47,798 nt of DNA from Bacillota bacterium (GCA_023511455.1 JAIMBJ010000028.1:1-47798), one strand, 5' to 3'; positions 31,806-47,798 are shown, counted from the first letter of the stretch. A program made the numbers and translations. Notes: generated by a model not told the origin, from the letters alone.

Positions 31806-32554
31806 GCAGGTAACTCAACAGCGCGGTAGAGTTCGGCAACCTCTTCTGCGGTGAGGTATCTCCAGGCACCAACCGGCAAGTTGCGCAAGGTGAGCGGTCC
31901 GAACCGCTCGCGGTGCAGGCGCACAACCGGATGTCCGACCGCCTGACACATGCGCTTGACCTGTCGCTTGCGCCCTTCGTGGATGGTCAGGCGAAGAAGG
32001 GTCGTCTTGCGGTCGGTGAGGTAGCGTACTTTCTGCACCTGCGCCGGGGCAGTGATGCCGTCTTCCAGCTGAACGCCTTTCTTCAGACGACAGATGGCTT
32101 CCTCTCCGGCCTCTCCGCGTACCTCCACCAGATAGGTCTTCGGTACGCCGTAGCGTGGGTGCATCAGGCGGTGAGCAAGGTCGCCATCGTCGGTAAGAAG
32201 CAGCGCACCTGTGGTATCCGCGTCCAGACGCCCGACGGGAAATACAGGCGCGCTAACCCCCTGCAGCAGGTCCGTCACCGTGCACGTGGCATGTGGGTCG
32301 CGGCGGGTGGTCATCACGCCTGCAGGCTTGTGCAGAAGGATGTAGGTGTGCTGTTTCGGCAGTTGTAGCCGCTTGCCGTCTACCTCGATGACGTCGGATT
32401 GGGGATTTGCCCGTGTGCCCAGCTGGGTGACCACCTGTCCGTTCAGGCGCACTCGCCCCTGCAGGATAAGCTGTTCACACGCCCGTCGCGAGCCATAGCC
32501 CGCCTGCGCCAGGATTTTCTGCAAACGCTGCAACTGATTGCTCATGTTCTGCAT
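31787..32554 (-). CDS. rluB: RsuA/RluB-family pseudouridine synthase
   Basis: This 255-aa protein has an N-terminal S4 RNA-binding domain (LQKILAQAGYGSRRACEQLI, about 10-30) and a catalytic domain with VGRLDADTTGALLLTDDGD (catalytic Asp about 112) and HEGRKRQVKRMCQAVGHPV. It modifies uridine in ribosomal RNA; RluB (23S) is a better guess than RsuA or RluF. Start is ATG 5 bp after the feoA stop with no ribosome site, so coupling is likely. It is the last gene of the feo operon. Confidence 0.9.
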   Translation of the reverse strand: MQNMSNQLQRLQKILAQAGYGSRRACEQLILQGRVRLNGQVVTQLGTRANPQSDVIEVDGKRLQLPKQHTYILLHKPAGVMTTRRDPHATCTVTDLLQGVSAPVFPVGRLDADTTGALLLTDDGDLAHRLMHPRYGVPKTYLVEVRGEAGEEAICRLKKGVQLEDGITAPAQVQKVRYLTDRKTTLLRLTIHEGRKRQVKRMCQAVGHPVVRLHRERFGPLTLRNLPVGAWRYLTAEEVAELYRAVELPAQTCGC

Positions 32555-32559
32555 GTGAA

Positions 32560-32841
32560 CTACGTTTCGGTATCGGGTTCCACGCGTACGGCTTTCGCGA
32601 GATGGTGGTCTATGGCAATCTGTGTGAAGCCGATTTGCAATACGTAGACTGGGAAACGTTGAACCACTTTCACACGGACACCTGGTACCACGCCCAAAGC
32701 CAGCAGCTTCTGTGCGATGGTATGGTCATGCAGTCGCAGCTCGCGCACGGTGCCCGCTTCACCCACGCGCAGGGCAGTCAGCGGGAGAGTATCTTCAGCG
32801 GACTCCTCCGGATGTCCACGCTGGCGGTGGCGTTTGCGCAT
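32560..32841 (-). CDS. feoA: FeoA-domain protein
   Basis: This 93-aa protein has an SH3-like FeoA domain: LTALRVGEAGTVRELRL, a LLALGVVPGVRVKVVQRFP turn and a closing IAIDHHLAKAVRV strand. FeoA binds FeoB and supports ferrous iron uptake. It lies 6 bp after the zinc-ribbon gene and 5 bp before the pseudouridine synthase gene. The first ~15 residues are charged and not FeoA-like, so the true start could be further in. Confidence 0.9.
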   Translation of the reverse strand: MRKRHRQRGHPEESAEDTLPLTALRVGEAGTVRELRLHDHTIAQKLLALGVVPGVRVKVVQRFPVYVLQIGFTQIAIDHHLAKAVRVEPDTET

Positions 32842-32847
32842 GGACTA

Positions 32848-33048
32848 TTACCTCTTGCGTGTGTCCGCTTCGGTGGCACGTCGCGCCCGCCAGCGGCGTA
32901 ACCACTGTACCACTGCAGGCTCTTGAGGTTGCTCATAGCCACAACGCGGACATTTGGTCAGATGGCACCCGCTGAACAGTCCGCAGCCCCGGCAAACCTG
33001 GGCTGCCTCTTCCTGCTCGTAGGTGTAACCGCAGAAAGCACATTTCAT
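32848..33048 (-). CDS. Small zinc-ribbon protein of the feo operon
   Basis: This 66-aa protein has seven cysteines: C3, C6, C19, C22, C28, C33 and C36, with His29 alongside. This gives two CxxC knuckles that can bind Zn or Fe. Its ATG overlaps the feoB permease stop by 4 bp and it precedes feoA. Similar short Cys-rich proteins sit beside feoAB in many anaerobes, with no settled role. It is not the classical winged-helix FeoC. It could sense or hand over iron. The C-terminal part is Arg-rich. Confidence 0.75.
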   Translation of the reverse strand: MKCAFCGYTYEQEEAAQVCRGCGLFSGCHLTKCPRCGYEQPQEPAVVQWLRRWRARRATEADTRKR

Positions 33049-34514
33049 AGCTGCACTCCGAGTGACTGCAGTATCAGATTCATCAACGTTCCCACTGTGA
33101 TGGCAAAGAGAAAGATGATGGCGGAAATCGCCAGGGCTGTTTTCAGACCCCGCTCTTTCTTCATCATGAGAAACTGCGCGATACAGGGCAGGAACAGGGT
33201 CAGCGTGACAGCGCTTACCAGCAGCTGGCGTCCGCTCAGCGCGCCGTGCTCCTGCAGGTGGTAAAGCCCGGCCGCACCGTAGTCGCGCCGGAAGAAGCCG
33301 AACAGGAAAGCAGAAGCCGCCTCGTCGGGCAAGCCCATCAGATGCACCACCGGCGTGAGCGCACGCAGGGCGAGGTCAAAAAGCCCTGTCATTTGTCCGA
33401 GCCAGATAACCACGCTCGCGAAGATGAAGAGAGGAAACACCTCGCGCAGGTACCAGTGCATTCGGGCGTAGGTTTTGGTGAGTACGTTAGAAAGTATCGG
33501 CAGGCGCATCGGCGGGATTTCGATGTAGAAGGTCGCTGGGGTGCCCGGCAACACTCGCGCCGTCAGCCAGCCAATGAACAGGAAGACACTAACCAGCGTT
33601 GCCGTCCATATCAACAGCGCGCCTGGGTGCGATGCCAGCAGCGCCATAATCACTCCCAGCTGCGCCGAGCAGGGGATAGCCAGCGCCAGCAGGAAGGTAG
33701 CAATGAGCCGTTCACGCGGGGTTTCCAGAATGCGCGTAACCATCGTTGCCATTGTGTCGCAGCCGAAACCCAGCACCATTGGGATGACCGCGCGTCCGTT
33801 CAACCCAATCTTTTTGAACAGTCGGTCGATCAGCATCGCCAGGCGGGGAAAGTAGCCGCTGTCCTCCAGTATCGAGAACATCAGGAAGAATGTGCCCACA
33901 ATGGGCAGAATGAGAGCGACCGCATAGGTGATTCCCAGTGTGAAGATGCCGTACTCCCCAACGAACAGTTCCTGAACAGGTACGAAGGGGATGATTGCTT
34001 TAACCCAGTGCGTGATGAACGGATTGATGTAGTTACCGAACAGCCCGTTCTCCAGCAGGTCCACCAGCGTGCCTCCGCCGAACACGCCCACAAACTGATA
34101 CAGACCGTAGTAGAGCACCAGTAGCAGGATGGGGATGCCGGTGAGGGGTTGCATACAGACCCTGCCCACCCATTCAGCCAGACCGCTGCTTGTTGTGGAA
34201 GGATGTCGCACCACTTCATGGGCGATAGAATGGGCAAGGCTCTGGCGGTGAGCGAGTATCACCATGCTGAGCGGTTCGCGATAGTGTTCCTGCGCTCGCC
34301 GAATATGCTCGGCGATGGCAGCGAAGCGCTCCTCGCCCTCCCGCTGGCGCACCAGTTCCTCTATCTCTTCGTCATACTGTAACAGCAGCAGGGCGACGGC
34401 TCGTCGGCTGAGGTTGTAACCCTCGCTCAGCAGAGCCTCGATGGCATCGGCTGCTTCTTCAATCGGCTGGGGATAGGCGATAACTCTGTCCGCCGGAAAG
34501 ATACTCGCTGACAA
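33045..34514 (-). CDS. feoB: FeoB ferrous iron transporter, permease half
   Basis: This 489-aa open frame contains the membrane part of FeoB: the cytosolic helical spacer (about 1-115), two Gate regions and several membrane segments, with FGCDTMATMVTRILETPRERLIATFLLALAIPCSAQ split over about 250-283. The cysteine-bearing motifs of the iron path are present. The start would be a TTG at 34514, overlapping the GTPase half by 56 bp in another frame. The spacer sequence YPQPIEEAADAIEALL fits the FeoB joint, so this could be a true split or a frameshift within one gene. Confidence 0.88.
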   Translation of the reverse strand: MSASIFPADRVIAYPQPIEEAADAIEALLSEGYNLSRRAVALLLLQYDEEIEELVRQREGEERFAAIAEHIRRAQEHYREPLSMVILAHRQSLAHSIAHEVVRHPSTTSSGLAEWVGRVCMQPLTGIPILLLVLYYGLYQFVGVFGGGTLVDLLENGLFGNYINPFITHWVKAIIPFVPVQELFVGEYGIFTLGITYAVALILPIVGTFFLMFSILEDSGYFPRLAMLIDRLFKKIGLNGRAVIPMVLGFGCDTMATMVTRILETPRERLIATFLLALAIPCSAQLGVIMALLASHPGALLIWTATLVSVFLFIGWLTARVLPGTPATFYIEIPPMRLPILSNVLTKTYARMHWYLREVFPLFIFASVVIWLGQMTGLFDLALRALTPVVHLMGLPDEAASAFLFGFFRRDYGAAGLYHLQEHGALSGRQLLVSAVTLTLFLPCIAQFLMMKKERGLKTALAISAIIFLFAITVGTLMNLILQSLGVQL

Positions 34515-40424: not shown

Positions 40425-41408
40425 ATGCTGGACAGTTTTCGCGTGGCACGATATCGGTTTACACTGGATTGCCTCTCTCCCATCGAGTTCCGCACATTTG
40501 CGGGTTCCACCTTGCGCGGGGCGTTCGGCAGTGTCTTCCGCCGGCTGGTGTGCATCACACGCGCACCGACCTGCGAGGGATGCCTTCTTCGTCATCAGTG
40601 CGCCTACGGATATGTGTTTGAGACAGCCCCCGCGCCGGATTCCCAGCGGTTGCGCCATTATGACACGGTACCTCGTCCCTACGTGTTCGATGCACCTGCG
40701 GGCGATAGCCTTGCCGTTGCCGAGGGAGAACAGCTGGAGTTCGGGTTAACGTTGATTGGGCGGGCAGTGGATTACTTTGCTTACTTCGTGTTCACCGCGC
40801 AGAAGCTGGAGGAAAGCGGGCTTGGGGCGGGGCGGCAGGAAGGCAAAGGACGGTTTCGGCTGACGCAGGTGGAGGCGCAGCGAGCCGACGGTCAGTGGGT
40901 GTCCGTTTTCCGTGCGGATCAGGGGTTGGACATGCTGCGGGTACCGTTGATTATGGGGAAGGACCTGGTGGCGCGGGCGCAAGGCTTGTCACCGCACCGT
41001 TTGCATGTCCACTTTCTCAGCCCGACGCGACTCCGCTTCGAAGGCAAGCTGACCGACGAGGTGGAGTTTCATCATCTGGTGCGGGCGATGTTGCACCGCC
41101 TCTCAGGTCTGCTGTACTTCCACTGCAGTGCAGAACCCAGCTGGGATTTTAGTGGCTTGATTACGTTAGCGCAGCACGTACGCACCGTTCAGAAACGCAT
41201 CCAGTGGGTGGAGCAGGAACGCTATTCGCGGCGGCAGCGTCGCCGTCTACCGATGGGCGGATTCATGGGGGAGATGACCGTCGAAGGCAATTTGGAACCT
41301 TTCCTGCCGCTGCTGGTAGCGGCGGAGTATGTGCACCTTGGCAAGGGCACTGTGATGGGTCTGGGCAAGATACGCATCGTGAGTGAGGAGGGAAGCGAGC
41401 ATGACTGA
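40425..41408 (+). CDS. cas6: CRISPR pre-crRNA endoribonuclease Cas6
   Basis: This 327-aa RAMP protein has FRTFAGSTLRGAFGSVFRRL near the start, a C50-x2-C53-x5-C59 cluster and a C-terminal glycine-rich loop (LGKGTVMGLGKIRI), as in the Cas6 C-terminal-domain family. It cuts pre-crRNA within the repeat to make guide RNAs. The ATG at 40425 follows GGAGG; an upstream ATG has no ribosome site. It overlaps cas10 by 8 bp and is the first gene of the locus. The cysteine cluster could bind metal. Confidence 0.93.
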   Translation: MLDSFRVARYRFTLDCLSPIEFRTFAGSTLRGAFGSVFRRLVCITRAPTCEGCLLRHQCAYGYVFETAPAPDSQRLRHYDTVPRPYVFDAPAGDSLAVAEGEQLEFGLTLIGRAVDYFAYFVFTAQKLEESGLGAGRQEGKGRFRLTQVEAQRADGQWVSVFRADQGLDMLRVPLIMGKDLVARAQGLSPHRLHVHFLSPTRLRFEGKLTDEVEFHHLVRAMLHRLSGLLYFHCSAEPSWDFSGLITLAQHVRTVQKRIQWVEQERYSRRQRRRLPMGGFMGEMTVEGNLEPFLPLLVAAEYVHLGKGTVMGLGKIRIVSEEGSEHD

Positions 41409-43812
41409 GACCGAGATGGACCTGTGTCTGGCTGCGCTATTGCACGACGCGGGCAAGGTCAGCCAGCGTTTCGGGGGCGACTATCGCCAGAAGCACGCCG
41501 CGATGAGTCAGGACTTCGTGCGTTCGCTGTCAGGCTATCTGGGCGAGGAACGCGCCCGGCGGGTGGCAACGCTGGCGGGTGCACACCACGATACTCCCAC
41601 CACCCGTCAGCAGAAGCTGCTGCATGTGGCGGACAAGCTGGCGGCGATGGAAAGGCAGAGCGAGCCGCGCGAGCGTCTCGACAGCGACGAAGCCGCGCTG
41701 GTGTCGGTGGCAAGCCGCGTGGAGTTTCGCGCTGACAGGGGAGAAGACCGCTACCACCCGCTGGAACCGCTGGACGAGGAACTGAGCGCGCTTTTTCCAT
41801 CGTCGGATAGCCGCGTGCAGGCGGGAGCCTATCAGCAGTTGTGGCAGGACTTTGTACAGGAGGTCAACGCACTGCCGCCGTTCCACCCGATGCATCTGCA
41901 TACGCTGCTTTCGCTTATCCGCAAGTACTGGGCGTTTGTACCGTCGGCGACGCCGTGGGAATGGGTTCCAATCCGCACCGTTCCCGACGTGTCGCTGTAC
42001 GACCACACGAAGGTAGTTACCGCCATCGCCGCGTGCCTGATGAAGCTGGACGCGCAGAGCCTGCCCGACGCGCGACTGGACCAGATCATCACGCTGCTGC
42101 GGCAGTTCGCGCAGGAGGGGGTACCGGATGTGGTAGAACAGGTGGAACGCGGGCGCGCCCCGCTAGCGCGGTTTGTGCGCATCGATATCGGGGGTATCCA
42201 GTCCTTCATCTTCCGTATCGCGCGTCCTGAATCAGACACCGGAGGCGTCGCGCGGCTGCTGCGGGGAAGGTCGTTCTTTGTGGCGATGCTGGCGCACGCG
42301 CTGGCAGAGCAGGTCATTCGCGTTTGCGATGTGACCCCTGCCAACATCCTCTTCTGCGGGGGAGGAACCATCGACCTGCTGTTGCCCGCAACGGAGAGTG
42401 CGCTGACCGCTGTGCGCCAGACCCTTCAGGAAGTCCGCAAGTATCTGCTGGAAACCAGTGGCGGGCTATTGAGCCTGCAGGCGGCGGTGATAGACCTTTG
42501 GGCGCACGATTTCGGCAACTTTGGCGACATATATATCCGGGTAGCGGAGAGACTTACCGAGGAGAAGACGCGCCGCAGCTGGAGCCTGATTCAGGAGATG
42601 GGCGAACGCCTCTTCATCTCCGAGCAGGCGATGCCGCACCCGTGTCCGTCCTGCCAGATTCTTCCGTCGCCGCAGGGGGCGCTGTGTCCCGAATGCCAGA
42701 TGCATCAGCGAATCGGCGCGAAACTGCCCGATACGCACAGCCTCGCCTTCGTGTGGGAGCCTGCGCAGGCACACGATACCGCGCTGACGTTCCCACCGCT
42801 GAACATGCAGGTGCGCCTGCTGAACGCGCAGGAGCGCGAACAGCTAGTACAATCGCCCCCGGCGGGCGACGTGCTGCTGGTGCGCCTGAACAGCCCCGAC
42901 GACTTCATCTCGCCGTGTCCGGCAGACGCCGCTATCGGCTTCCGCTTCCAGTTCGTGGCGAACCGCGTGCCGACCTGCGGTGGCGTCCTCATCCCGTTCG
43001 AGCCGATGGCGGAGCTGGGCGAGGGCGCGGCGCGGCTGGGCGTGCTGAAGATGGACGTGGACTACCTCGGCGCGGTGTTCGGCATGGGAGTCGAGCCTCC
43101 CACCATCAGCCGCCTCGCCACGCTGAGCAGCGCGTTCGAAGCCTTTTTTGGCGGGTGGCTGAACCACCTGTGCCTGCAGGTCAGCGAGGAATGGGCGCAA
43201 AGCCTGCCACGCCCGCCGAAGGTAGATGCCACCTCGGGCGCGTTCTACACGCTGTACGCGGGCGGCGACGACGTGTTCGTTATCGGTCCGTGGGAGGCGA
43301 CCATCCGTCTGGCGCAGGCAGTGAACGACGACTTTCACCGCTTCGTGGGCGAGAACCCGAACCTCACGCTGTCCGGCGCGGTGGTGTGTGTGAAGCCGAA
43401 GTTCCCTGTGCCGCGCTTTGCCGAGCTGGCGGAAGAAGACCTCGCCCGCGCCAAACGGGGCACCGATACAAACCCCCTGTCGCGCGGCGACCACGTGTGC
43501 CTGTTCGATACCGTCGTCTCGTGGCAGGAGGGGCAGCAGCTGGTGGCGTTCGCCAAGGACCTGTACCGCGCCGTACAGCACAGGCAGGTGGCGAAGGGGT
43601 TCGTCTACTTCCTGCTGCGTTTGCACGAGGAGTTCTTCCGCGAACCGCAGCAGCCCAACCTGCAGTGGATACCCCGCTTCCATTACCAGTTGGCGCGGCG
43701 CGTGCCTCCCGAAGTGGTGCAACAACTGCGCCTTCTGGAGCGCATCCCTCGCGCCATGCCTAACATCCGAATACCTGTCTCTATCGTCAGTCTCAAGATG
43801 AGGGAGGATTGA
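41401..43812 (+). CDS. csm1: Type III-A CRISPR large subunit Cas10/Csm1
   Basis: This 803-aa protein has an N-terminal HD nuclease domain (LHDAGK with His15-Asp16 and AGAHHD near 60), a palm domain, a zinc ribbon (C415, C418, C429, C432), and a second palm with GGDD at 621-624. HD cleaves ssDNA and GGDD makes cyclic oligoadenylate when target RNA is bound. Both active sites look intact. GGAGG precedes the ATG at 41401. The C-terminal part is helical. It is the signature gene that makes this locus type III. Confidence 0.97.
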   Translation: MTETEMDLCLAALLHDAGKVSQRFGGDYRQKHAAMSQDFVRSLSGYLGEERARRVATLAGAHHDTPTTRQQKLLHVADKLAAMERQSEPRERLDSDEAALVSVASRVEFRADRGEDRYHPLEPLDEELSALFPSSDSRVQAGAYQQLWQDFVQEVNALPPFHPMHLHTLLSLIRKYWAFVPSATPWEWVPIRTVPDVSLYDHTKVVTAIAACLMKLDAQSLPDARLDQIITLLRQFAQEGVPDVVEQVERGRAPLARFVRIDIGGIQSFIFRIARPESDTGGVARLLRGRSFFVAMLAHALAEQVIRVCDVTPANILFCGGGTIDLLLPATESALTAVRQTLQEVRKYLLETSGGLLSLQAAVIDLWAHDFGNFGDIYIRVAERLTEEKTRRSWSLIQEMGERLFISEQAMPHPCPSCQILPSPQGALCPECQMHQRIGAKLPDTHSLAFVWEPAQAHDTALTFPPLNMQVRLLNAQEREQLVQSPPAGDVLLVRLNSPDDFISPCPADAAIGFRFQFVANRVPTCGGVLIPFEPMAELGEGAARLGVLKMDVDYLGAVFGMGVEPPTISRLATLSSAFEAFFGGWLNHLCLQVSEEWAQSLPRPPKVDATSGAFYTLYAGGDDVFVIGPWEATIRLAQAVNDDFHRFVGENPNLTLSGAVVCVKPKFPVPRFAELAEEDLARAKRGTDTNPLSRGDHVCLFDTVVSWQEGQQLVAFAKDLYRAVQHRQVAKGFVYFLLRLHEEFFREPQQPNLQWIPRFHYQLARRVPPEVVQQLRLLERIPRAMPNIRIPVSIVSLKMRED

Positions 43813-43817
43813 ACACC

Positions 43818-44237
43818 ATGAACAAACCAGAAAAACCCAACATCCAACAGGTCATCGACCGCATCAAACGGCTCAACCGCCTGAGCGAGCTGGACGTGAG
43901 GGAGTTCGCCCTGGAGGGGGGACTGGCGGACCAGGTGGTGCAGGCTATCGGAACCGCCAGCCTGAAGCCCACCCAGCTGCGCAAGGTGTTCCACACGCTG
44001 AAAACGATGCAGCGGGATGTAGACCGAGCGAACCGCTCTGACCCGTTCGACAGCGCGAAACTGCTTCAGCTGATGCCCACACTGGCGTACGCGGTGGGCA
44101 GGGAGCTCATCCCGAAAGACTTTTACCAGCTCCTGCGGGAGGTGTTTAAACCGGAACGCCTGCCTACCAACGCCGATTTCCTGAGGGCGTTCGAGTTCGT
44201 GGAAGCCATTCTCGCCTATCACAAGTACCGCTCATGA
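43818..44237 (+). CDS. csm2: Type III-A small subunit Csm2
   Basis: This 139-aa, mostly helical protein sits between csm1 and csm3 and ends with FLRAFEFVEAILAYHKYR, typical of Csm2. Several copies line the target-RNA path of the Csm complex. The ATG at 43818 is preferred over a TTG at 43809 because GGGAGG (43802-43807) gives a better spacing. It starts 5 bp after csm1. Confidence 0.93.
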   Translation: MNKPEKPNIQQVIDRIKRLNRLSELDVREFALEGGLADQVVQAIGTASLKPTQLRKVFHTLKTMQRDVDRANRSDPFDSAKLLQLMPTLAYAVGRELIPKDFYQLLREVFKPERLPTNADFLRAFEFVEAILAYHKYRS

Positions 44238-44254
44238 GGGAAGGAGGAGACACG

Positions 44255-45124
44255 ATGAATCAACCAGCACTGGAAGGCAAGTACATCATCAGCGTGCAGC
44301 TGGAGGCGGTCACGGGACTGCACATCGGGGGCAGCACCACCGGCTTCGAGATTGGTGGGGTGGATAACCCCGTCATCCGCGACCCGCTCACCGACGAACC
44401 CTACATCCCCGGCTCCTCGCTGAAGGGCAAACTGCGCCACCTTACCGAATGGAGTTTGGGGCTGATCGACCGACACCCCAAGCACAAGGTGTACGGCGCG
44501 TACCACTGCAGTGAACTGGGGCAACCGCGCCCCAGCAACAACGGCGCAGAACGCTGGGACAAAGCCTACCTCGTGGGCAGGCTGTTTGGCGTGGCGTCGG
44601 ACGATTCACAGGTACGGCAGACCGCCGGTCCCACCCGCCTGACGGTGCGCGATGCCTTTCTGGTGGAAAGCGCACGCAAGGAGATGCAGCAGATACTGGG
44701 GGAGGGTATCTTTACCGAGCTGAAGACCGAGAACTTCCTCGACCGCATCACCTCGGAGGCGAACCCGCGCACGATGGAGCGCGTGCCCGCGGGCGCGCGG
44801 TTCTGGGTGCAGATGGTTCTCGACCGCTACGCGGGCGACGCCACCGACCTGTTGAGGCAGCTGTTGGCGGCCATGCGCCTGCTGGAGGACAGCTCGCTGG
44901 GGGGCAGCGGCTCGCGAGGCAGTGGGCGGGTGGCGTTCCGCCAGCTGCGCGTCATCTGGCGCGGGCTGGACTACTACCTGCAGGGCGCGCCCGAGCAGAC
45001 GCTGTTCCCCAACGGCGAGATGAACGACGAGGAGAAAAAACAGGCGGCAGCCACGCCCCTCCGCTTCCTGCAGAACAACGGGGCGTTCGAGCGATTCTTC
45101 GGCAAACGGACGGAAGGAGGGTAG
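44255..45124 (+). CDS. csm3: Type III-A backbone subunit Csm3 (Cas7-like)
   Basis: This 289-aa RAMP protein has GGVDNPVIRDPLTDEPYIPG with Asp37, the residue that cleaves target RNA every six bases in known Csm3. It is followed by SSLKGKLR. A glycine-rich GGSGSRGSGRV loop near 216-226 is typical of the Cas7 fold. Multiple copies form the crRNA backbone. The ATG at 44255 follows GGAAGGAGGA. The last residues are an acidic/glycine tail. Confidence 0.96.
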   Translation: MNQPALEGKYIISVQLEAVTGLHIGGSTTGFEIGGVDNPVIRDPLTDEPYIPGSSLKGKLRHLTEWSLGLIDRHPKHKVYGAYHCSELGQPRPSNNGAERWDKAYLVGRLFGVASDDSQVRQTAGPTRLTVRDAFLVESARKEMQQILGEGIFTELKTENFLDRITSEANPRTMERVPAGARFWVQMVLDRYAGDATDLLRQLLAAMRLLEDSSLGGSGSRGSGRVAFRQLRVIWRGLDYYLQGAPEQTLFPNGEMNDEEKKQAAATPLRFLQNNGAFERFFGKRTEGG

Positions 45125-45128
45125 CCCC

Positions 45129-46169
45129 ATGCCCGGCGTTTGCGTGAAGATGACCCCGTGCGGGGCGGTGACGGGCACACCGCCGCCGTCTCCCACGCTG
45201 TTCAGCGCGCTGTGCTGGGCAACGGCGGTGCTGTACGGGCACAGCGAAGCGCAGGCGATGGCGGAGGAACTCACCTGCACCGGCGCGTTCCCTCTACTGC
45301 AAGCCGACGACGCGTGCCTGCGCTTCTATCCCATGCCCGTACTCGCCCTGCCCGTCCACCGCCTGTCCGACCGCACACTGCCCAGTAAACAGCGGGTGAC
45401 CCGCAGCCTCAGCCAAGTCAAGCGGCTGAAAGGGGCGCAGTATCTCAGCGAGAGCCTGTTCGTCCAGTTCGTGCGGGGCGAGTGGAACGCCGACAGGCTG
45501 TTGCAGGAGATGGAGGCAGAGCGTCTGGTGCTGCGCGGCAGCTGCCTGTTACCCCGTGAGGAGGCGCAGCAGTTCGGACTGGGGCGGGGCAGTCGCGCCC
45601 TGCTGACCACTAAGGACATCACCCATAACGAGATCGACCGCTGGACGCTGGCGGTGGTGGAGGGCAGGCTGTTCCTGCGGGAGGCGACCTTCTTCGCGCC
45701 GCAGATGGGGCTGTGGTTCGGCGTGCATGTCCAGTCGCAGAAGGGCATGGAACGTCTGCCCGCCCTGCTGCGCTTCCTCAGCGATACCGGCGTGGGCGGC
45801 GAGCGCACCTCGGGCAAAGGGCAGTTTCAGTTCCACCTGTGGGAGGTCGCCCCCGCGCCTCCTGACCCCCCGACGCCCCGCTCGTGGGTGAGCCTGAGCC
45901 ACTACCTGCCCACCCCGCAGGAGCTGCAGGGCTGGAACACGCCGCCACGCTATCAGCTCATCCACTGGCAGGCGAAATACGAAGCAATGTATACGGGCGG
46001 ACTGGCGGTATACAAACCCCTGCGCCGCCTGTTTGCGCCCGGCAGCGTGTTCCCCTTGACCCAGACGCAGGAGGTGTACGGACGCGCCGTGCCCTCCGGC
46101 GAGCGGCTGGGGCACACGGTGTGGGTGTGCGGGCGCGCGATACCCGCCTTCTCCGGAGGTGAAGCATGA
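45129..46169 (+). CDS. csm4: Type III-A crRNA 5'-end subunit Csm4 (Cas5-like)
   Basis: This 346-aa RAMP protein has PPPSPTLFSALCWATAV near the start, LPSKQRVTRSLSQVKRLKGAQYLSE around 84-108 and GVGGERTSGKGQFQF near 218-232, the glycine-rich loop of Csm4. It caps the 5' handle of the crRNA and contacts Cas10. It begins 4 bp after csm3, with GGAGG before the ATG, and overlaps csm5 by 4 bp. Confidence 0.93.
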   Translation: MPGVCVKMTPCGAVTGTPPPSPTLFSALCWATAVLYGHSEAQAMAEELTCTGAFPLLQADDACLRFYPMPVLALPVHRLSDRTLPSKQRVTRSLSQVKRLKGAQYLSESLFVQFVRGEWNADRLLQEMEAERLVLRGSCLLPREEAQQFGLGRGSRALLTTKDITHNEIDRWTLAVVEGRLFLREATFFAPQMGLWFGVHVQSQKGMERLPALLRFLSDTGVGGERTSGKGQFQFHLWEVAPAPPDPPTPRSWVSLSHYLPTPQELQGWNTPPRYQLIHWQAKYEAMYTGGLAVYKPLRRLFAPGSVFPLTQTQEVYGRAVPSGERLGHTVWVCGRAIPAFSGGEA

Positions 46170-47353
46170 AGCACGAAGTGTACACGGTGAACGTGCAGGT
46201 GCAAACCCCCGTGCATGTGGGCAGCGGCGAGACGGTCAACGCCCTCAGCTACCTGCGGGTGAAAGACATGCTGTACGTGATAGACGACAACCGCTGGCAA
46301 CGGTGGTTGGAAGGGGCGAACGTCACCTCGCGCTTCCTGCAGTGGATGGATAGCGTGGCGCAGGTGCTGGGCACGCCGCAGCAGAGGCAGATGTCGCTGA
46401 CGCGCTTCCTGACCGACAGCCTGCGCCGGCAGGACGTGGAGGCGGTGGCGAAGCAGGTGGCAGCATATTCACTGCGCATGGAGGAGTGCGGCGAGCCAGA
46501 CGCCGTACGCGGCTTGAAGGCACACCTGCGCGACGCCCGTCGCTGCGCCTACCTGCCCGGTTCATCGCTCAAGGGGGCCATCCGCACCGCCCTGCTGGAA
46601 GACCTGCTGCTGGAGGATAACCGCCTGGAACGCTACCTGCAACAGCCCCTACAAGAGCGGTTGAAGACCGCAGCAGGCGACCGCCGACGCCTGAAGCGTG
46701 AGGTGCGCGACGTGTGGCAACAGATGGAGCAGGCTCTCCTTCGGGGCGGCAGGTCGAAAGCCAACTTCGACCTCCTGCGCTTCGTGATGGTGTCGGATGG
46801 CGAGCCTTTCGCGCACGAGCAGGTGAGCCTGCGTCTGGTGCGTTCGGAGGGGACGAACCGCCCCACTCACACATGGCTGGAGATGGTGCGCCCTGGAGCC
46901 AACACGCGCTTCACGCTGACGCTGGTGCCCGACGCCCCCCTGAAGCCGCTGGGGCTGGACGACGCGCTGGGCGAATACCTGTTGTGGCAGACGCTGTTCG
47001 AGGTGCTGTACGAGCGGGCGGAGCGCAGGTTGCAGCGTGAACTGCGGTATCCTTATCCTGCCGCGGTGAAGCAGGAGCTGCAGCGGTTGCAGTCGCTGAA
47101 CCGCCGCGACACGCCCCTGCTGTGCGTGGGTTGGGGGCAGGGCTATCTGGGCACGACGGTGATGGGGCTGGTGCGCGACGACTTGCCGCAGGATTATGCG
47201 CAGATGGTACAGAATATGCGGGAGGCACTGCCGCGGCGGGGTCAGGGGGTTCAGCCTTCAAACTTCCCGAAGACGCGGCGGACGGTGCGCCAGCGTGACG
47301 AGCAGGCGGTCTGCACGCCTGGATGGGTGCAGTTGCATTTAAATGAGACGTAG
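46166..47353 (+). CDS. csm5: Type III-A subunit Csm5 (Cas7-like)
   Basis: This 395-aa RAMP protein starts with KHEVYTVNVQVQTPVHVGSGE and has YLPGSSLKGAIRTALLED around 131-148, both typical of Csm5. It caps the 3' end of the complex and helps crRNA maturation. It is the last gene of the operon. The C-terminal part is basic (ends FPKTRRTVRQRDEQ...). An adjacent stem-rich region leads to the CRISPR array. Confidence 0.93.
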   Translation: MKHEVYTVNVQVQTPVHVGSGETVNALSYLRVKDMLYVIDDNRWQRWLEGANVTSRFLQWMDSVAQVLGTPQQRQMSLTRFLTDSLRRQDVEAVAKQVAAYSLRMEECGEPDAVRGLKAHLRDARRCAYLPGSSLKGAIRTALLEDLLLEDNRLERYLQQPLQERLKTAAGDRRRLKREVRDVWQQMEQALLRGGRSKANFDLLRFVMVSDGEPFAHEQVSLRLVRSEGTNRPTHTWLEMVRPGANTRFTLTLVPDAPLKPLGLDDALGEYLLWQTLFEVLYERAERRLQRELRYPYPAAVKQELQRLQSLNRRDTPLLCVGWGQGYLGTTVMGLVRDDLPQDYAQMVQNMREALPRRGQGVQPSNFPKTRRTVRQRDEQAVCTPGWVQLHLNET

Positions 47354-47382
47354 AAAAAGCGTTTTAATGACAAAAAGTCGGG

Positions 47383-47423
47383 CGCGAACCTCGATTGATC
47401 ACGGCTCAAGCGTGAGGTTCGCG
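47383..47423 (+). repeat. Hairpin upstream of the CRISPR array
   Basis: CGCGAACCTC (47383-47392) and GAGGTTCGCG (47414-47423) pair perfectly across 21 bases, 30 bp after the csm5 stop. It could be a terminator-like or leader structure. Confidence 0.5.
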
Positions 47424-47452
47424 GGTGGCGACGGCGGTCGAATCGCAAAACC

Positions 47453-47476
47453 CCGTGTTGCCAGCGGGCAACGCGG
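47453..47476 (+). terminator. Second hairpin after csm5, possible terminator
   Basis: CCGTGTTGCC (47453-47462) and GGCAACGCGG (47467-47476) form a stem of 10 bp with one G-U pair and an AGCG loop. Only a weak T-rich segment follows. Confidence 0.45.
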
Positions 47477-47494
47477 TGAGTTGTCTTGCACCTT

Positions 47495-47550
47495 GGCAAA
47501 ATGTACTAACAAAAATGGGGCAAAATGTCGAATTTACCCCTGTTTTTGAC
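47495..47550 (+). promoter_or_regulatory. Leader-like region with direct and inverted repeats
   Basis: GGCAAAATGT occurs at 47495-47504 and 47519-47528, 24 bp apart. A near-palindrome (CAAAAA-T-GGGG ... CCCC-TG-TTTTTG, about 47509-47548) ends next to the first CRISPR repeat. This A/T-rich segment is the likely leader of the array. Confidence 0.5.
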
Positions 47551-47659
47551 ATTGCAACGCCTGCCCCGACCAATAGGGGACTGAAACATAGATAAGCAAG
47601 CCCCACGGCGCAACGGGTATGAATTGCAACGCCTGCCCCGACCAATAGGGGATAGGACT
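47551..47659 (+). CRISPR. Mini CRISPR array (two repeats, one spacer)
   Basis: Repeat 1 (47551-47587, 37 nt) starts ATTGCAACGCCTGCCCCGAC and ends CTGAAAC, with internal CCCC/GGGG arms. Repeat 2 starts at 47623 and matches repeat 1 for the first 30 nt, but its last 7 nt are changed (TAGGACT), as expected of a terminal degenerate repeat. The spacer is 35 nt (47588-47622). The repeat 3' end on the plus strand is GAAAC, so transcription should run away from the cas genes' end. The locus is type III-A. No further repeat is seen up to 47798, though the window ends there. Confidence 0.85.
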
Positions 47660-47798
47660 TACGCCGTTGCGATAGGCACCTGACGGGCCATGCATTTTTC
47701 AACGACTGCGGACCCGATTTACTGTCATGCTGAAGTCTATGTTGTTTGTCAAGGGCTACCAGCCGCTACCCCCCCACAGCGGGCATATACTCAGACAC

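Follow-up and report, generated by a model that had tools for sequence, protein, structure and literature searches.

A type III-A locus ending in a one-spacer array

The window, i.e. the whole 47,798-nt stretch of DNA analyzed, is a complete contig (C28) of a 3.85-Mb genome (G000; 73 contigs, 98.98% complete), which, within the genome collection, stands closest to metagenome assemblies of Armatimonadota type. At its right end, cas6, cas10/csm1, csm2, csm3, csm4 and csm5 lie in a single locus, the gene content of a type III-A (Csm) system, and a leader of ~200 bp separates csm5 from the first repeat of a CRISPR array (Table 1). An earlier, sequence-only reading had called this a complete type III-A set with intact key residues, and both statements hold. 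All six genes are full-length and unbroken, and all products but Cas6 pass the NCBIfam type III-A cut-offs (e.g. 513.7 versus 170 bits for Csm1 and 217 versus 90 for Csm3). A motif check of the translations found the HD (LHDAGK) and GGDD motifs of Cas10, as well as GGVDNPVIRDP of Csm3, which contains D37.

Table 1. Coordinates of the type III-A genes, leader elements, array and inserted elements in the window
Feature	Position	Strand	Evidence or remark
cas6	40425..41408	+	PADLOC Cas6 5.2e-101; NCBIfam cas6 below cut-off
cas10/csm1, HD and GGDD motifs	41401..43812	+	TIGR02578 513.7 bits
csm2	43818..44237	+	TIGR01870 above cut-off
csm3, presumed catalytic Asp37	44255..45124	+	TIGR02582 217.4 bits
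csm4	45129..46169	+	TIGR01903 115.8 bits
csm5	46166..47353	+	TIGR01899 79.6 bits
Leader inverted repeat, 10-bp arms CGCGAACCTC/GAGGTTCGCG, 21-nt center, common to the genome's I-C arrays	47383..47423	+	
TTGGCA, possible weakened -35 element (TTGACA in four other III-A leaders)	47493..47498	+	leader alignment
Leader-proximal motif TGTCGAATTT, common to III-A and I-C leaders	47526..47535	+	leader alignment
CRISPR repeat 1, 37 nt, ATTGCAACGCCTGCCCCGACCAATAGGGGACTGAAAC	47551..47587	+	
Sole spacer, 35 nt	47588..47622	+	no target found
Terminal repeat, first 30 nt; degenerate end (..GGGGATTAGAAC) past the MITE, on the C17 end	47623..47652	+	
Left part of ~195-bp MITE inside terminal repeat	47653..47733	+	intact copies elsewhere in genome
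Start of second multicopy element, nested in MITE; contig end	47734..47798	+	seven other contig ends identical

The cas10 gene is 89% identical to that of the nearest relative. Against this relative, dN/dS comes to 0.16 (cas10), 0.12 (part of cas6) and 0.26 (csm2), indicating that the cas genes have been kept under purifying selection, with the caveat that these values are averages across all of the divergence and would not reveal that selection had been lost recently.

Among the 30 ORFs scanned in the window (1–40 kb), we found no cas1, cas2 or CARF gene; two weak ‘CARF’ matches in the window reflect helix-turn-helix segments only, one in sigma-factor region 4 and one in a MarR-type protein. 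CARF effectors, Csm6 or other, are common near a type III-A locus or elsewhere in the genome, but they are not obligatory. Near this locus, none was present among the scanned window ORFs, and none was apparent by eye within about 10 kb of the sister loci. Profiles for two effector families, Csx1-HEPN and Csm6-HEPN, searched genome-wide, gave no match. The sequence-only reading took the GGDD motif to mean that the genome encodes a cyclic-oligoadenylate effector, a claim still without proof.

The array is a repeat–spacer–repeat unit, as the sequence-only reading had it. One point needs correcting: the second repeat ends not at 47659 but at 47652, and a MITE follows it directly. The MITE belongs to a family of ~195 bp with many copies in the genome. 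Its members are bounded by the terminal repeats TAGGASTTACGC..GCGTAACTCCTA and flanked by target duplications of 5 bp, which are perfect in several copies. The first 81 nt of the MITE are present on C28, and at MITE position 81 the second element starts. Because this second element also ends seven other contigs, we attribute the break in the assembly to it.

The seven contigs that have the second element at their start or end are C2, C5, C9, C10, C16, C31 and C60. The element lacks obvious terminal repeats, and its interior was not found at the contig ends read. In every copy read, GTCATGCTGA, part of a REP-like repeat (GTCATGCTGAGCGAAGC..), comes before the element, which suggests target-specific insertion.

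The opposite end of the composite was found on three contig ends, and the flanks could be paired by their target duplications: C31 with C50 (GAGGT), C9 with C49 (AAAAA), and C28 with C17 (AGGGGA, at 47647–47652 in the array). With the duplication counted once, the last site reads ..CCAATAGGGGATTAGAACGGCG. The last 8 nt of the second repeat are decayed in this site, ATTAGAAC instead of ACTGAAAC, which identifies it as the terminal repeat. In another of the genomes (G002), the terminal repeat of one III-A array (L006) likewise decays directly after GGGGA. Past the junction, C17 encodes HprK-like, DprA-like, gyrA and other ordinary genes (named from reading of the translations), and the stretch read contains neither an array nor cas genes. 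A long array or a cas1/cas2 pair just past 47798, or assembly collapse, each raised by the sequence-only reading as evidence against itself, was not borne out. No synteny was seen between C17 and the region downstream of the L006 array. When the right junction was instead sought as an intact repeat end by pattern search, there was one match with two mismatches, on C38, and no MITE end adjoins it.

Elsewhere in the genome, there is no further copy of the III-A repeat within three mismatches. This absence, together with the degenerate terminal repeat on C17, argues that the array truly has one spacer. Our first reading, in which the array continued past the MITE, was dropped on account of the paired C17 end and its degenerate terminal repeat. 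Both flanks of the repeat–spacer–repeat unit are accounted for, the left one in the window and the right one on C17, via a link inferred from the target-site duplication and the degenerate repeat rather than from a sequenced bridge. Because C28 ends at 47798, sequence beyond this point is reachable only through the C28–C17 link. No target of the spacer was found in viral contigs (exact 35-mer and 20-mer core), phages or plasmids; a 20-nt plasmid match (E 0.3) was taken as chance.

The same locus in relatives, and the adaptation genes

Three relatives carry the same locus, with the same neighbor (an hldE-like kinase gene) and the same order of cas genes, leader and array. Genome-wide counts of full III-A repeats are 13 in G001, 18 in G002 (two arrays) and 6 in G008, compared to one here, and III-A repeats are absent from six other congeners. 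The short array is peculiar to G000, which fits the earlier suggestion that it may be shrinking. Leader alignment shows TTGGCA in G000 versus TTGACA in the four other III-A leaders. Furthermore, the III-A repeat starts with A here and with G in the other III-A loci compared, such that the leader–repeat junction is C|A versus C|G. In an orphan III-A array of G002 (C73 ~32466–33462; L089:467–1463), ~1.0 kb of coding-like DNA lies between two intact III-A repeats, exactly in place of a 35-nt spacer. This segment has no PHROG match, and no relative was found in viral contigs; candidate explanations are an insertion, a giant spacer or an assembly error.

The III-A locus lacks cas1–cas2, and the genome contains a single cas1, on C36, within a complete type I-C locus (cas3-cas5c-cas8c-cas7c-cas4-cas1-cas2 plus array) and hence a complete type I acquisition module (cas4-cas1-cas2). 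The I-C array on C36 has a different repeat from the III-A array and is interrupted by the contig end. An orphan array on C56 (L034:1–2650) is made up of I-C-type repeats, counts 18 repeat units or more, and has no cas genes in view next to it. Its repeat has the loop TTCG, versus CCCG in the cas-linked I-C repeat. Congeners have at most one cas1 each, and those that could be assigned lie in type I loci; subtype I-B was assigned in these genomes by reading translations and by the 30-nt repeat.

Repeat starts were compared between III-A arrays and type I arrays. No type I repeat from another genome fits the first 8 bases of a III-A repeat better than the resident one does. The III-A and resident type I starts are GTAACAAC and GTAACAAG (I-B) in G002, and GTTGCACC for both III-A and I-C in G008. 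In G000, the starts are ATTGCAAC (III-A) and GTTGCACC (I-C), and the agreement (6/8) is the poorest among those compared.

A leader inverted repeat common to several array types

A 42-nt leader motif, GCGAACCYCRATTGATCACGGYKCAAGCGTGAGGTTCGCGGG, occurs at only three places in the 3.85-Mb genome: the III-A leader, the I-C leader and the leader of the orphan I-C array. The motif forms an inverted repeat around a 21-nt center. A looser version was searched in ten congeners, and all nine matches lie in front of a CRISPR repeat. The distance from the motif core to the CRISPR repeat is 157–158 bp in III-A and 169–171 bp in I-C leaders. Closer to the array, a TGTYGAATTT motif lies ~22–26 bp before the repeat in I-C and III-A leaders.

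Inverted repeats arranged alike but with other, still complementary arm sequences were found at the I-B arrays of congeners and the III-A arrays of G002. To assess covariation, arm pairs were counted by script in a fixed register; MAFFT had shifted the arms in I-B rows. Watson–Crick pairs fill 88% of the cells, six pairs have both of their bases changed, and 2000 shuffles of the arms never did as well; kinship of the sequences inflates these counts, although the three arm types (CGCGAACC, TGTAGAACC and GTCTACC) are plainly distinct.

The distance from inverted repeat to first repeat is 126–127 (III-A) and 138–140 (I-C), compared to 66–68 and 22, respectively, from inverted repeat to promoter-like hexamer. 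Because the distance to the array is the steadier of the two, this spacing points to a role of the inverted repeat in integration rather than in transcription. Helical phasing of the distance between inverted repeat and array (p ~0.05, four classes only) is given no weight as evidence.

Thus, III-A and type I arrays share signals of the kind expected for integration, in the leader and at the repeat start. In G002, however, the III-A arms differ from those of the resident I-B leader, and hence the arm sequence is no simple Cas1 recognition code. When aligned with window positions 47380–47425, both III-A leaders of G002 (L006 and L089) have different arms, TGTAGAACCTC/GAGGTTCTACA, around a nearly identical center, as though the two arms had been exchanged together. 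Among the leaders with the inverted repeat, that of G006 (C4 ~177600–177830; L051) precedes a lone degenerate repeat of I-C type, and spacers are absent. We regard it as a dead or empty array, a relic; the cas1 of G006 is in a type I-B-like locus.

Interpretation and comparison with known systems

Taken together, these observations make it probable that a chromosomal interference module of type III-A (Csm), devoid of adaptation genes, is fed in trans by the I-C integrase and that its array is now contracted. Adaptation in trans, or the borrowing from another locus proposed in the sequence-only reading, is well supported by the single cas1 in the I-C locus and by the common leader motif. By this account, I-C Cas1–Cas2 (with Cas4), encoded elsewhere in the genome, would add spacers to the III-A array, reading a signal that both kinds of array have, made up of the inverted repeat (ending ~126–140 bp before the first repeat), TGTYGAATTT (~22–26 bp before it) and the start of the repeat itself. 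The array would have contracted in G000 to one spacer and a degenerate terminal repeat, into which the MITE would later have moved, with the second element carried in it and breaking the assembly. The remaining spacer would be transcribed from the leader, and the transcript then cut by Cas6. The resulting crRNA would guide the Csm complex, with Csm3 cutting target RNA and Cas10 being activated (DNase, cyclic oligoadenylate).

Several points weigh against this scheme. No target was found for the spacer, and hence no type I PAM was seen. The arms do not simply track the resident Cas1, as the III-A and I-B inverted repeats of G002 differ. In G001, III-A repeats are present and no cas1 was found, perhaps owing to incomplete assembly (this genome is 93% complete). 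Lastly, the C28–C17 link is indirect, and the assembly is fragmented and possibly derived from a population, so that it may hide variation in array length and cells with longer arrays may exist.

More tentatively, the inverted repeat might be a subtype-independent docking site for the Cas1–Cas2 integrase or for a DNA-bending partner. One integrase could then feed several array types, with repeat starts co-evolving to fit, and the window array might represent a natural loss of fit (junction C|G to C|A), after which it ceased to grow and contracted.

Of the alternatives to this scheme, a relic fares best, although we hold it to be doubtful. Here, acquisition would have stopped once the leader (TTGACA to TTGGCA) and the leader–repeat junction (C|G to C|A) had changed, with loss of interference to follow. 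Neither change occurs in any other III-A leader compared, no other III-A repeat start agrees so poorly with its resident type I repeat, the terminal repeat harbors mobile elements, and the G006 leader with its lone degenerate repeat offers a parallel. On the other hand, none of the six cas genes is broken, and dN/dS to the nearest relative is 0.12–0.26, an average that is blind to a recent loss of selection.

Somewhat less likely still, the III-A complex would draw most of its guides from the I-C arrays, leaving its own array free to decay; guide borrowing was also raised in the sequence-only reading. The last 8 nt of the repeats (5′ handle) are one base apart, ACTGAAAC versus ATTGAAAC, the orphan I-C array has 18 or more repeat units, and type III systems have been reported to employ type I guides (PMC9048733). 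Purifying selection on the cas genes would also fit. However, the III-A and I-C repeats differ in the middle, the III-A locus has its own cas6, and in G008 a longer III-A array persists alongside an I-C array.

That the array is not short at all, its remainder lying beyond the MITE and missing from the assembly, is improbable: C28 does end inside a multicopy element and assemblies often lose arrays, but C17 provides a right end with the target duplication, the degenerate terminal repeat (GGGGATTAGAAC) and then ordinary genes, the other two left/right pairs are explained by their own duplications (GAGGT and AAAAA), and the genome holds no additional near-copy of the repeat.

To our minds, the most interesting part of the system, as favored here with trans adaptation, is the subtype-spanning leader inverted repeat. 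It provides sequence-level evidence, apart from PAMs, for one adaptation module serving several CRISPR types, and it names a short, directly testable leader element, with covarying arms, every match of which in the genomes searched precedes a CRISPR repeat. The case also shows a way to tell a one-spacer array beside intact interference genes from an assembly gap.

The absence of cas1–cas2 from many type III loci has been reviewed (PMC9048733), and there is large-scale PAM support for the use of type I acquisition modules by such systems (Vink et al. 2021, PMC8482600). As in the systems of Vink et al., a type III locus without adaptation genes coexists here with one type I acquisition module and distinct repeats. 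However, their distinct-repeat class pairs I-B and I-E with type III, whereas here I-C is paired with III-A, and our evidence is the common leader rather than the PAM. In type I-F, leader inverted repeats are bound by Cas2 during integration (PMC12259127). The element described here is likewise an inverted repeat upstream of the first repeat, which suits a two-fold symmetric integrase; the likeness lies in the arrangement and, unlike in I-F, the element spans the I-C, III-A and I-B leaders of one genus and its binding partner is putative.

Thermus thermophilus HB27c, with I-B, I-C, III-A and III-B arrays, also combines several types in one genome, and there, too, leaders differ in non-acquiring arrays and one leader was lost to a transposon (PMC7515739); in contrast to our genome, Thermus has a type III-specific cas1. 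The III-A system of Lactococcus plasmid pKLM is similar in that acquisition was not observed, an array has lost spacers by deletion and an IS lies in the array, but it is plasmid-borne, has cas1 and csm6, and contains 4–15 spacers (PMC3519859). A limited literature search, which is no proof of absence, found no prior description of a leader inverted repeat common to I-C and III-A arrays. The general principle of service in trans by type I modules is known; I-C and III-A arrays with distinct repeats, joined by a leader inverted repeat, are a new instance of it.
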